This document shows, piece after piece, positions 5,528-52,717 of a DNA stretch of 55,728 nt. The stretch is from positions 1 through 55,728 of IMG/VR virus record IMGVR_UViG_3300036861_000270; one strand, written 5' to 3'. This stretch comes from a virus. Made by a program: the position numbers and the translations under genes. The notes below the pieces were generated by a model. That model was not told the DNA's origin, did not search any database, and worked only from the letters and a program-made list of their open reading frames with translations. How positions within the stretch are numbered: position 1 is the stretch's first letter; each line of letters opens with the position of its first letter.

Positions 5528-6643
5528 GTGGCGTTGGCTCACGAAAAGGTCGGGCACACAGAGCAAGGGCTCTGGCATCACAAAGGGATGCAGCTGCCAG
5601 CCTTCATACAAAGAATCGCCAACGACCTGATCCACGAACGGGGCATGCCGGAGTCGGAGGCGATCGCCACCGCGATCTCCCAGTGCAAGCGGTGGGCCGC
5701 CGGCGGCGAGAACGTCAAGCCAGAGACCCGCGCGAAGGCTGCCGCGGCGATCGCCGAATGGGAAGCGCTGAAAGCCAAGAGCAAAGCAGGATCAGGATCG
5801 CACGGGAGGGCGGACACGCCGATGCCGTACACCAGAAGCTTTCCGTTGGAGGACATCTCCATCGCCAGGGACGGGAGCGGCAGAGTCGTGGACGCCTACG
5901 CCGCCGTGTTCAACACCCCCGCCAAGGTCAGAGACCAGGACGGCACCTACGAGGAAACCATCGACCCGACCGCGTTCAACCGCACCCTGGAACACCGCCG
6001 CCGCGCCAAGGGTGGCGCGTTCCCGGTGCTGTTCAACCACGGCATGACCCTGTTCGGCACCCCCTCTGAGCGGTACGCCGTCCCGATCGGCGTGTCGGAA
6101 GAGGTTCGCGTGGACGGCAACGGCCTGTTCACCCGTTCCCGGTTCCACCGCACCCAGGCCGCCGACGAGATCCTCGAGGCGATCCGAGACGGCTCCATCA
6201 CCGGCTACAGCTTCCGCGGCGACTTCCTCCGCTCCGACCCGGTCGCCCCTCGCGGCGGATTCCGTCCCGACCACGCCGGCCGGCTCCAGACCGTCCGCCG
6301 GACGGAACTGTCGCTCGACGAGTACGGCCCGGGGACGTTCCCGGTCTACAAAGGCGCAGAGATCGTCGGGGTCCGGGCCGAGCAGGCCGCACTCATGCTC
6401 AGCGCGCTGGCCCCCGGCGAGTTCGACAGGCTCGCCACCATGTTCCGGTCCGGCACTCCACTGGACTCGCCACCTGGCACTCCAGCAGATCCGCCGGCCG
6501 ACGACACCCCCGAACAAGGATCGGGGCCCGTCACCGAGGACCCGTCGCCACTGCGGCACTCCGTTCGGCCACCACATCTGGAACTCCAGGCCCAGCGGGC
6601 CAAGTTCCTGATCAAGCACGGAGGAGGTCACATCGGTGCCTGA
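5528..6643 (+). CDS. prohead (capsid maturation) protease, with N-terminal extension
   Basis: 371 residues from GTG 5528 with GGAGGTGA upstream. Residues 1-90 form a helical extension (HKGMQLPAFIQRIANDLI, then an Ala-rich helix). Residues 95-270 match the HK97 prohead protease/S78 pattern: FEETID-like segment, FNHGM with the likely catalytic His near 167, and IRDGSITGYSF with the likely Ser near 222. The C-terminal 100 residues are Pro-rich. It would cleave the capsid delta domain during maturation. It overlaps the capsid gene start by 8 bases. Confidence 0.88.
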   Translation: MALAHEKVGHTEQGLWHHKGMQLPAFIQRIANDLIHERGMPESEAIATAISQCKRWAAGGENVKPETRAKAAAAIAEWEALKAKSKAGSGSHGRADTPMPYTRSFPLEDISIARDGSGRVVDAYAAVFNTPAKVRDQDGTYEETIDPTAFNRTLEHRRRAKGGAFPVLFNHGMTLFGTPSERYAVPIGVSEEVRVDGNGLFTRSRFHRTQAADEILEAIRDGSITGYSFRGDFLRSDPVAPRGGFRPDHAGRLQTVRRTELSLDEYGPGTFPVYKGAEIVGVRAEQAALMLSALAPGEFDRLATMFRSGTPLDSPPGTPADPPADDTPEQGSGPVTEDPSPLRHSVRPPHLELQAQRAKFLIKHGGGHIGA

Positions 6644-14214: not shown

Positions 14215-15891
14215 ATGCCACCTCGCCGGGGATATCTCAAGCCCCCAGCCCGGATCATCCGCCGCGGGTCGCGGATCCTCCGCCCGCTCGTCACCGGCGC
14301 AGTCTCCCCGATCACCAAGGTCGGCACCGACGGCACCACCGCCGCGACCGTGCAGGACACCACCCCAACCACCGCATGGCCCTCGGGGATCACCGACGGG
14401 GACCTGGTCGTCCTCGAGGTCACCTACGGGTCCGGCGCCACCCCGACCACCATCTCGCAGGCCAGCGGCGCGACGATGACGCTGGCAAGCGACCTGTCCG
14501 ACACGTCCATCCGGACCGCCACCTACACCCGCTTCTTCGTCACCGGCGACACCGCCCCCACGTTCACCCTGTCCACCGCCCGCTCATGGGCGACCAAGAC
14601 AACAGCGTTCCGTGGGGTCGACACTGTTCACCGGTTCGGCCCGAACGACAACGACTTTCAGCAGACCGCCCAGGCGTCGTCCACCAGCTACGCGTCCGGG
14701 TCGCTCACCCCCGACGAGGACCTGGCGATGGCGGTCCTGGTCTGGGGCGGGAAGATCGCCGCAGGCGGGACGCAGACGATCACGGTCGCGTCCGGGTGGA
14801 CCGACACCGGCGCGATCAACCAGTGCAACATCGCGGCGACCACCAACGTCTGGTGCGACATCCAGTACCAGGCGCTCGGCACGGCGGCCGCGACCAGCGA
14901 GTCAGTGACGATCGGGACCGCCGCGGTCGGACAGGGCACGATCCTCGCGCTGAACCCGGCCCCGGCCGGTGGCGCTCTATCTCGCACCGCCGCTGATACC
15001 GCCTCGGCCACGGACACTGCCACCAGATCAGTTGCCGAGGCTCGTACTGCAGCCGATACCGCCAGCGCCTCGGACAGCGCGCCACGTATCGCCAGCTTCG
15101 CCCGTTCCGCCTCGGATACCGCCAGCGCGACCGACACGGCGGTCGGGGTCGGCGGTGGGAATAGCCGGACCGCCTCGGATGCTGCCTCAGCAACTGACAC
15201 AGCATCGCGGACGCTAGGGCTGGCCACCCGCACGACTGCGGACACGGCCAGCGCTTTGGACACGGTCACCCGGACCGCACCGAAGACCCGCACGACCGCT
15301 GACACGGCGTCGGCCAGCGACACGGCAACGCGGACGTGGGCGGCAGCCAGGACCGCCACGGAGACGGCAAGCGCCACCGACGCGGGCGCCCGGCTCGTCG
15401 CGTTCGCACGGTCGGCCTCCGATACCGCAACGGCAGCGGACGCCGCCACCCGGACGGCACCGCGCATCCGCACCGCATCCGACACGGCCAGCGCGACGGA
15501 CACGGCGGCTGGGTCGACGTCGGGGAACCTGCAACGCACCGCCACCGACACCACCCAAGCGACCGACACGGCGACACGCTCGGCGATCACCTGGGCACGG
15601 TCGACCGCCGACACCGCCCAGGCGGTTGACGCGGCCACCCGGACCGCACCACGCACCCGAATCGTCAGCGACACCGCCGCAGCCGCCGATGTAGCGGTCG
15701 GAGTCGTCAACCACTCGTTCACCCGCACCGCCGCCGACACCGCCAACGCAGCAGACACGGCATCGGGGACGGTCGTGGCGTTCACCGTCGGCCAGCTCAC
15801 CGCCACCTTGGCCGCCCTGACCACGCTTACCGCTGCCGACGCGCCGACCGCGACCCTGACCGCGACGGCCACACGGGGCGGCCCCACCTAA
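14215..15891 (+). CDS. repeat-rich fibre-like protein
   Basis: 558 residues. Residues 1-245 form a beta-rich domain like those of the neighbouring surface proteins. Residues 250-520 contain about 13 degenerate repeats of 16-22 residues with core RTAADTASATDTATR, in which Asp recurs in the pattern D-T-A-x-A-x-D. This is unlike collagen repeats and probably forms an extended stalk. The end is hydrophobic and Ala/Thr/Leu-rich. It is probably a capsid fibre or side appendage, since it lies before the head-tail adaptor gene. Confidence 0.72.
   Translation: MPPRRGYLKPPARIIRRGSRILRPLVTGAVSPITKVGTDGTTAATVQDTTPTTAWPSGITDGDLVVLEVTYGSGATPTTISQASGATMTLASDLSDTSIRTATYTRFFVTGDTAPTFTLSTARSWATKTTAFRGVDTVHRFGPNDNDFQQTAQASSTSYASGSLTPDEDLAMAVLVWGGKIAAGGTQTITVASGWTDTGAINQCNIAATTNVWCDIQYQALGTAAATSESVTIGTAAVGQGTILALNPAPAGGALSRTAADTASATDTATRSVAEARTAADTASASDSAPRIASFARSASDTASATDTAVGVGGGNSRTASDAASATDTASRTLGLATRTTADTASALDTVTRTAPKTRTTADTASASDTATRTWAAARTATETASATDAGARLVAFARSASDTATAADAATRTAPRIRTASDTASATDTAAGSTSGNLQRTATDTTQATDTATRSAITWARSTADTAQAVDAATRTAPRTRIVSDTAAAADVAVGVVNHSFTRTAADTANAADTASGTVVAFTVGQLTATLAALTTLTAADAPTATLTATATRGGPT
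14985..15770 (+). repeat. degenerate coding repeats (about 13 copies)
   Basis: In-frame repeats encoding the RTxxDTAxAxDTATR core. Unit length varies because the linkers between cores vary (for example SVAEA, IASFA, TWAAA). The third codon positions differ among copies, so the array is old or selected at protein level. Confidence 0.75.
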
Positions 15892-50562: not shown

Positions 50563-52278
50563 GTGACACCACTCGAGCGATTCCGGTCAGCGCTCGAACA
50601 AACCGGCAGCAGACAGACATCGCCGGGCGCCTGGACCTGCCCAGCCCACGACGACCAGCACGCCAGCCTCTCAGTCAAGGAGGGCCGCGACGGCCGGGTC
50701 ATCCTCAACTGCCACGCCGCGGCGGGCTGCACGTTCGAAGACATCGTCCGAGCGGTCAACCTAGAACCTCAAGACCTGTTCCCACCCAAAGAACAGAGCA
50801 ACGGGTCGCGGTCCATCATCACCGCGACCTATCCCTACACCGACGAGAACGGCCACCTGCTGTTCGAAGCGGTCCGCATGGCACCCAAGGCCTTCCGGCA
50901 ACGCCGGCGGCCCTGGTCGACCGACCCCCTCGAAGCCATCCGCGACGGGTGGGTCTGGAACCTGCACGACGTCCGACGCGTCCTCTACCACCTACCCCAG
51001 GTCATCGGCGCGATCGAACGTGGCAAGGAAGTCTGGATCGCCGAAGGCGAGAAGGACGTCGCGGCGCTCGAGCAGGCAGGCGCCTATGTCGCCACCTGCA
51101 ACCCGATGGGCGCCGGGAAGTGGCGCGATGAATACTCCAAGTTCCTGGAAGGCGGCCACGCCGTGGTCGTCGGCGACCTCGACCCTGCCGGCCGGGCCCA
51201 CGCCGAAACGGTCGCCCGCAGCCTCCAAGCTGCCGGCTGCACCGTCCGCGTGGTCTACCCCGCCAAAGGAAAGGACGCCTACGACCACCTCGACGCTGGG
51301 CTCGGCCTGGACGACTTCATCCCCGCAGAAGGTGCACAGCAACGCCTCGACGATGCCGAGCCGACCGCCCCCAAGGCGCCACTCGCCGTCGAGATCCACG
51401 ACTTCCTCGACGCACCCGAAGACGAATACGACTGGCTCATCACCGGACTCCTCGAACGGACGGACCGGATGATCCTCACCGGACCCGAAGGCGGCGGGAA
51501 ATCCACGCTCCTACGGCAGATCGTCGTGGAGGCCGGCGCCGGCCTCCACCCGTTCACCCTCGAGCCGATCGACAAGATCCACGTGCTCTACGTCGACCTC
51601 GAGAACGCCAAGAGCCACGTCCGCCGCCAACTCCGCCCGCTCACCCTCAAGGCCGGCCCGAAGCTGGACCGTGACCTCGTCTACGTCACCGTCCAGTCCG
51701 CCGGCATCGACCTGCTCCACCAGACCGACGTTGACTGGCTGGAAGCCCGCATCGCCGAAGCCACCCCCGAGCTGGTCGTCATCGGACCTCTCTACAAGAT
51801 GTCCGCTGGCGACCCGACCTCGGAAGAAGTGGCCCGCAAGGTCTCAGCCGTCCTCGACGACCTCCGCACCAGCCATGAGTTCGCGCTCATCATCGAAGCT
51901 CACTCGCCCCACGCCGCCGGCGGCGGACGCCGACCCCAACGCCCCTACGGTGCCTCCATGTGGCTGCGCTGGCCTGAGTTCGGGATCTACCTCGACGCCT
52001 CGGGCTCGCTGACGCACTGGCGCGGCGCGCGCGACGAACGGGACTGGCCGACGACGCTCCGCCGCGGCGGCGAGTGGCCCTGGACCACAACCGACAACCC
52101 TCGTGAGGAACTGTGGGAACTGCTCTGCGCCTGGGTCGACCGGTACGGCCGCGTTCCATCAATCCGGTCGTTGGAGGCCGAGACCGGCAAGCCCCGAAGC
52201 TCCATCCAACGCGCCATCAAGGCCCACCAGGACGTGTGGGACGAGTTCAAGGCCAAGTACGGGGAGACGGACGCGTGA
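50563..52278 (+). CDS. bifunctional primase-helicase (TOPRIM + RecA-like)
   Basis: 571 residues from GTG 50563. Residues 20-65: zinc ribbon (CPAHDDQHASLSV, NCHAAAGC). 155-245: TOPRIM (IAEGEKDVAAL, VVVGDLDPAGRAHA). 295-450: RecA-like ATPase, Walker A TGPEGGGKST (about 307) and Walker B LYVDLEN (about 345). The last 50 residues form a HTH-like end (GRVPSIRSLEAETGKPRSS). It would prime and unwind DNA at the phage origin. Confidence 0.87.
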   Translation: MTPLERFRSALEQTGSRQTSPGAWTCPAHDDQHASLSVKEGRDGRVILNCHAAAGCTFEDIVRAVNLEPQDLFPPKEQSNGSRSIITATYPYTDENGHLLFEAVRMAPKAFRQRRRPWSTDPLEAIRDGWVWNLHDVRRVLYHLPQVIGAIERGKEVWIAEGEKDVAALEQAGAYVATCNPMGAGKWRDEYSKFLEGGHAVVVGDLDPAGRAHAETVARSLQAAGCTVRVVYPAKGKDAYDHLDAGLGLDDFIPAEGAQQRLDDAEPTAPKAPLAVEIHDFLDAPEDEYDWLITGLLERTDRMILTGPEGGGKSTLLRQIVVEAGAGLHPFTLEPIDKIHVLYVDLENAKSHVRRQLRPLTLKAGPKLDRDLVYVTVQSAGIDLLHQTDVDWLEARIAEATPELVVIGPLYKMSAGDPTSEEVARKVSAVLDDLRTSHEFALIIEAHSPHAAGGGRRPQRPYGASMWLRWPEFGIYLDASGSLTHWRGARDERDWPTTLRRGGEWPWTTTDNPREELWELLCAWVDRYGRVPSIRSLEAETGKPRSSIQRAIKAHQDVWDEFKAKYGETDA

Positions 52279-52544
52279 AAGTGGCCTACCCGCTGTTTTA
52301 CCCCGCTGACCTGCTGGGACACTCTAGATCCGTTACGCCACAATGGTGTACCACTGCTGTCCCACTGTCCCAAATAACTGTCCCAACCCTAAAACCGCAG
52401 GTCAGAGCCCATATTTGGTGGGTGGGACAGTCTAGGTGTCCCAACCACCCTGAAACCGCAGGTCAGGGCACTGTCCCACTGTCCCACCCTTCGGGTAGGA
52501 CCTGTCTGGGACAGGGTCCAGTCCCACCCGAGGAGGACACGTGA
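52275..52544 (+). CDS. possible 89-residue protein overlapping the repeat cluster
   Basis: Open frame from GTG 52275 (GTGA overlap) to TGA 52544, which overlaps the next GTG. The start KVAYPLFYPADLLGHSRS looks protein-like, but the rest is the reading of the TGTCCCA repeats (VPLSQITVP, TVPLSHP). It may be translated or simply open. Confidence 0.35.
   Translation: MKVAYPLFYPADLLGHSRSVTPQWCTTAVPLSQITVPTLKPQVRAHIWWVGQSRCPNHPETAGQGTVPLSHPSGRTCLGQGPVPPEEDT
52315..52526 (+). repeat. iteron-like cluster, candidate origin of replication
   Basis: Nine exact copies of TGTCCCA or its inverse: direct at 52358, 52366, 52379, 52437, 52472, 52480; inverted (TGGGACA) at 52315, 52423, 52507. A partial copy lies at 52520-52526. 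Two CCGCAGGTCAG copies (52396, 52456) lie among them. The block is A+T-richer in its middle and directly follows the primase-helicase gene, as origins often do. Confidence 0.6.
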
Positions 52545-52717
52545 CCCGGGTGAAGGTCCGCTGCGCGAACCCGCAGCCGACCCTGGCCGGCCCGTGCACC
52601 TGGACCGGCGTCCGCGCCGGCCGGACCGTCACCACCAACGGCGGCCGCACGTTCCTCCAGCCCCCGACCCGTAAGCGCTGTCCCCGCTGTGGCGGCCCCG
52701 TCGAGGAAGCCCCGTGA
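52541..52717 (+). CDS. 58-residue zinc-ribbon protein
   Basis: GAGGAGGACAC upstream of GTG 52541. VKVRCANPQPTLAGPCTWTG and RKRCPRCGGPVEEAP: Cys pairs of a zinc ribbon with basic residues between. Short nucleic-acid-binding protein by appearance. Confidence 0.58.
   Translation: MTRVKVRCANPQPTLAGPCTWTGVRAGRTVTTNGGRTFLQPPTRKRCPRCGGPVEEAP

Follow-up and report, generated by a model that had tools for sequence, protein, structure and literature searches.

The window analysed here is the whole 55,728-bp stretch of the virus record, in which a primase-helicase of 571 aa is encoded on the plus strand at positions 50563–52278. Pfam searches identified an N-terminal Toprim part (Toprim_2/Toprim_3) and a RecA-like AAA_25 core (E = 3e-25), and the core is followed by a C-terminal HTH tail (codons 510–571; positions 52090–52275, plus strand), which we propose as the iteron-binding domain on the basis of helix prediction and of the co-occurrence of tail and array described below. 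Because the first whole-protein structure model was poor at residues 74–277, a shorter model of residues 275–571 (pLDDT 88.8) was used for the fold search; its best PDB match was RSF1010 RepA (1g8y, 1olo, 1nlf). Foldseek comparison with 1g8y gave an E value of 4.8e-10, which places the model among the RepA-type, presumably hexameric, helicases. The tail is predicted from the first structure model to form helices at residues 513–528, 534–541, 545–554 and 556–566, the third of which is the predicted recognition helix (positions 52195–52224, plus strand). By eye, a DnaB_N-like N-terminus seemingly replaces the Toprim part in four relatives (L627, L629, L630 and L636), with core, HTH tail and arrays alike.

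The gene is followed by a 262-bp non-coding gap (52279–52540), bordered on its 3' side by a probable small CxxC gene that starts at 52541 and has GAGGAGG before the start. An earlier note had described nine TGTCCCA copies in this gap as a candidate iteron origin. An exact-match listing confirmed all nine within 199 bp, six on the plus strand (iterons 2–4 at 52358–52364, 52366–52372 and 52379–52385; iterons 6–8 at 52437–52443, 52472–52478 and 52480–52486) and three on the minus strand (iterons 1, 5 and 9 at 52315–52321, 52423–52429 and 52507–52513). The reported 8-bp spacings (52358/52366 and 52472/52480) are correct, as is the position 3' of the replicative enzyme, with the array beginning 36 bp past the primase-helicase stop codon. 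An approximate-copy search added a degenerate iteron, TGTACCA, with one mismatch (52347–52353, plus strand). The signal lies in the clustering, since the whole-window total is only mildly high (15 copies in 55,728 bp versus 8.4 ± 3.3 in shuffled sequence); the densest heptamer cluster per 200 bp holds 9 copies here, against a mean of 4.2 and a maximum of 5 in 60 simulated windows, and shuffled versions of the gap itself contained 0.14 copies on average and 2 at most. CCGTGTC (6) and CACCGCC (6) at 15241–15798, which rank next in the window by cluster density, are probably repetitive coding sequence.

Two further elements accompany the iterons. Both previously recorded copies of CCGCAGGTCAG are present, and a repeat search revealed a third, inverted copy, CTGACCTGC, which abuts iteron 1 (52306–52314, plus strand). 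The other two, hereafter box B like the third, lie on the minus strand at 52397–52405 and 52458–52466 (each GCAGGTCAG on the plus strand), the latter in a context shared with the nearest relative. A short hairpin, CCCTTCGGG, follows the tandem iterons at 52487–52495; many relatives carry CCCC-TTACG-GGGG-like hairpins at the matching place, and the fold alone is not significant here (fold z −1.16).

The whole gap is taken as the candidate origin, as it holds iteron copies in all frames and no conserved frame. It had been pointed out that an open frame crosses the array, which could make the iterons coding repeats. One plus-strand frame does run open through the gap, and 17 of the 19 loci whose arrays follow the helicase gene directly have an open frame over 230 bp, which favours such a reading; open frames of this kind are common in GC-rich DNA. 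The open frame is not the same between relatives, however, the plus copies of the 19 arrays are spread evenly over the three frames (35/33/32), copies occur in both orientations, and peptide matches between loci across the gap are few and short. We therefore rejected coding repeats, to which we attach a negligible probability. Conservation of the frame without conservation of the DNA had been named as a refutation of the origin; we found the opposite, with DNA elements conserved in register and no reading frame conserved.

Other marks of an origin were also sought. The A+T-rich middle described before is weak: 40-bp windows there reach 47–50% A+T versus 33% overall, yet 1,014 windows in the record are equally rich. 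No strong A+T-rich unwinding region was found in the gap, no turn in GC skew was seen at 52 kb, a measure uninformative as an origin marker here, and no DnaA box (TTGTCCACA within 1 mismatch) occurs near 52 kb. We counted all three against the origin reading, and the last also against a DnaA-dependent origin.

We then compared the locus with relatives picked by protein alone (29 viral contigs, giving 30 loci when the window is counted). TGNNNCA arrays were found within 370 bp after the stop codon in 18 of the 30 loci, window included, with 5–14 sites versus about 1.4 expected; a further locus (L625, on the same contig as L002) has an array of CGTACCA directly 3', and in three (L636, L643 and L650) the array is displaced about 1.2–1.8 kb downstream. 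The helicase tail past the core is either 58–80 aa long, with the HTH, or 2–29 aa long. Arrays 3' of the gene accompany 22 of 25 helicases with the ~60-aa HTH tail and none of 19 tail-less ones (Fisher p = 2e-9). This p value makes no correction for kinship and overstates independence, since isolated Gordonia and Arthrobacter phages, some of them close relatives of one another, are among the tail-less set. In 19 of the 25 tail-bearing family members the array follows the helicase gene directly, and in three (L628, L646 and L652) no such array occurs within the loci examined. L628 carries repeated AAGGAATTTGTTCCAAATTCTG units at 113–264, upstream of its tail-bearing helicase, and has no 3' array.

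These comparisons extend the earlier note in two respects. The iteron is better written TGNNNCA: one sequence dominates in each phage, and the middle three bases differ between phages (TGTCCCA, TGATTCA, TGGCCCA and TGGACCA among others). TGTCCCA as a universal iteron was thus rejected, as close relatives use other sequences. Box B, by comparison, stays constant while the iteron varies; its CTGACCTGCGG element, in the consensus C[CT]CTGACCTGCGG, occurs in 21 of 22 arrays, with 48 occurrences in about 7.7 kb of arrays versus 114 when the relatives' loci (~129 kb) are taken whole. In L002, the nearest relative (60% identical in the helicase part), the same region follows the helicase: CGTACCA stands at the sites matching TGTCCCA, the tandem pair included (TGTCCCACTGTCCCAC against CGTACCACCGTACCCC), and the GCAGGTCAG element is kept. 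No nucleotide similarity of the window to isolated phages was found, and this helicase is absent from five bacterial genomes that carry TGTCCCA clusters.

Such an array might instead be an autoregulatory operator, where the helicase tail or a repressor on the repeats controls the downstream genes and replication starts elsewhere. HTH domains are often regulators, and the array lies just before the probable gene start at 52541 with its good ribosome site. Within 52200–52600, however, a scan for sigma-70-type promoters and for intrinsic terminators found no such site; some ten sites spread across ~200 bp on the 3' side of the gene, in either orientation, are many for an operator; the array sits 1.2–1.8 kb further downstream in three relatives; and characterised arrays of this design, those of SaPI and PICI elements, are origins. 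We judge the operator improbable.

We investigated which part of the helicase follows the iteron, using the 19 loci with arrays directly 3'. Among 300 alignment columns, only R545 (0.69) and S546 (0.59) exceeded 0.54, the family-wise 95% permutation threshold, and the predicted recognition helix begins with this pair. Arg or Lys followed by Ser goes with TGTCCCA (Arg in 5 of 6, L654 being the Lys exception), Gln with TGAATCA/TGATTCA and Lys with TGGACCA/TGGTCCA, several iteron classes having a single member. Classically, Arg side chains contact G and Gln side chains contact A, and the pairings seen here would fit those rules. Common ancestry does not account for the link between residue and iteron, because the iteron classes are scattered on the helicase-core tree (14 changes versus a shuffled mean of 14.5). 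Of nine phylogenetically independent pairs (4 + 2 + 3), nearly all agree in direction, the rest show no difference and none is reversed, each test being too small for significance.

A direct view of the switch comes from L627 and L639, whose helicases are 77% identical. Their arrays can be aligned in register, and at most iterons TGGCCCA stands in place of TGATTCA, whereas the hairpin is unchanged and box B almost unchanged; the recognition helix reads QPSVSR in L627 and RSTIQR in L639. For L636, which has Lys at 545, TGGACCA was expected before the scan and then found, although this was not a formal blind test; beside this match stands a miss, L652, which has Gln and in its record a single TGAWTCA with no array. 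The joint change of repeat sequence and two tail residues suggests how origin specificity may switch.

This covariation also bears on whether a protein other than the helicase, for instance DnaA as a host initiator, or a partition or packaging protein, occupies the sites. Because TGTCCCA arrays also lie upstream of genes for GpA-type large terminases, at a distance of ~500 bp, the heptamer alone is no proof of replication; yet an iteron that covaries with helicase-tail residues is unexpected if a third protein bound it, the array is absent from tail-less relatives, and the site has no TTGTCCACA-like DnaA boxes. We regard such a third protein as very improbable. The terminase-linked arrays belong to another phage group (L015, L022, L032, L041, L057, L082, L106 and others) and carry 5–10 copies in mixed orientation with very regular spacing; they are possibly a packaging or regulatory site rather than one for replication.

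The earlier proposal of an iteron origin 3' of the replicative enzyme is supported by the tie between tail and array, by the residue covariation, by DNA elements conserved in register and, as set out below, by the like layout around DUF927 and Prim-Pol/AAA_25 proteins and by the SaPI, PICI and SCCmec precedents. From these comparisons of sequence, 52279–52540 is very probably the phage replication origin, bound by the HTH tail of the helicase itself, which would thereby load the helicase. In the mechanism we propose, the C-terminal tail of the primase-helicase encoded upstream would bind the TGTCCCA iterons directly and so concentrate several helicase molecules on the DNA; the hexameric RepA-like helicase would thereby be loaded, without a separate initiator protein, with strand opening and the start of replication at this site. 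The fixed CTGACCTGCGG box may offer a second site, to be bound by a host factor or by some conserved component of the complex.

A wider survey found mixed-orientation TGTCCCA clusters immediately 3' of genes for primase-helicases that carry AAA_25, VapE-like, DUF927 or DUF5906 domains. Among the matches listed, mixed-orientation clusters of TGTCCCA, wherever placed, were far commoner in viral contigs (48 of 119) than those of the permuted heptamer ACCCTGT (6 of 120). Arrays lay near the stop codon in 40 of 78 VapE loci (68 of 940 background windows), 73 of 79 DUF927 loci (4 of 989) and 68 of 73 Prim-Pol/AAA_25 loci (17 of 635), in sets chosen by protein whose seeds came via TGTCCCA clusters and many of whose members are near-copies. 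In both the DUF927 and the Prim-Pol set, the iteron type follows the C-terminal ~110 residues more closely than overall similarity accounts for (0.269 and 0.068, p = 2e-4 each); almost no other block shows this. A 320-bp non-coding gap after the primase-helicase of Microbacterium phage Marcie (L385, 4193–4515), with repeated GTGACGCACT/GTGACAC-like motifs, is another candidate origin.

The survey suggests that the 3' array is common in phages across several helicase folds. We see an about even chance that unrelated families of phage primase-helicases share an origin formed by a 3' array, with specificity in the last 60–110 residues, and that in the AAA_25/HTH family this specificity is a readable code whose arrays switch in concert. 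If so, the first residues of the recognition helix would name the middle bases of TGNNNCA, and the origin type, which could serve as an incompatibility type when phages coinfect, would be predictable from the protein's sequence. From sequence, few phage origins can be recognised; here the position of the array, the helicase tail and two residues point to both the origin and its specificity, which can be tested with one small domain and short oligonucleotides. The replacement of iterons in concert with the recognition helix would give a clear example from nature of protein–DNA specificity evolving on both sides.

Among known systems, Arthrobacter phages such as SilentRX and the Streptomyces plasmid pSCL1 have a related helicase core, at about 34–47% identity. 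Unlike the helicase of the window, the Arthrobacter-type phage helicases end 2–29 aa after the core and the pSCL1-type plasmid helicases likewise lack an HTH tail; no TGNNNCA array lies directly 3' of the helicase gene in either, and a separate DNA-binding or RepA-like gene precedes it, in which the initiator function may sit. Arrays of other kinds were seen in both groups. pSCL1 (L663) has two symmetric nine-site arrays downstream of its helicase gene (6118–6231 and 6441–6553; ACCGTCA and CCCGACA, pattern +++++----), and Arthrobacter phage BruhMoment (L382, 2232–2340) has a GGGAACA array upstream of its tail-less primase-helicase, between that gene and a small gene that follows an HTH DNA-binding gene.

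Phage and prophage primase-helicases of the VapE-like, DUF927, DUF5906 and Prim-Pol/AAA_25 types resemble the window in their mixed-orientation arrays directly 3', some of TGTCCCA, but differ in helicase family, C-terminal sequence and array geometry; TGTCCCA, common to several helicase families, is probably convergent. A literature search, with most subscription papers outside it, found none linking TGTCCCA with phage iterons. RSF1010 (IncQ) RepA shares the fold of the helicase core. IncQ plasmids have a separate iteron-binding protein, RepC, and a separate primase. Judged from these features alone, the window differs from IncQ, with its RepC and ~20-bp iterons, in having 7-bp sites and in joining primase, helicase and HTH in one protein.

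A close parallel in design lies in the SaPI and PICI satellites and in SCCmec. SaPI Rep uses its C-terminal domain to recognise iterons that lie immediately downstream of the rep gene, and the C-terminal domain of SCCmec Cch2, taken by itself, binds the putative Cch2 origin (PMC7581432). In PICIs of Gram-negative bacteria the organisation is the same, the iterons are element-specific, and a rep-ori segment maintains a plasmid (PMC6092414). SaPIbov1 Rep, SaPI5 Rep, E. coli EcCICFT073 pri-rep and Cch2 share with the proposed origin of the window a helicase initiator with short iterons directly 3', and SaPI and PICI iterons likewise vary between elements. Their C-terminal recognition of iterons is where our covariation and the co-occurrence of tail and array, read from sequence, would also point. 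The helicases of these elements are of DUF927 or D5/Primase_Cterm type, whereas that of the window is a RecA-like AAA_25 protein nearest RSF1010 RepA, in a 55.7-kb virus record instead of a small satellite; in the satellites two iteron sets flank an A+T-rich block, whereas here the copies are spread over sequence of 47–50% A+T, common elsewhere in the record, and an invariant box B is added. The best reading is that a SaPI/PICI-like design on an RSF1010-RepA-like helicase forms a new combination.
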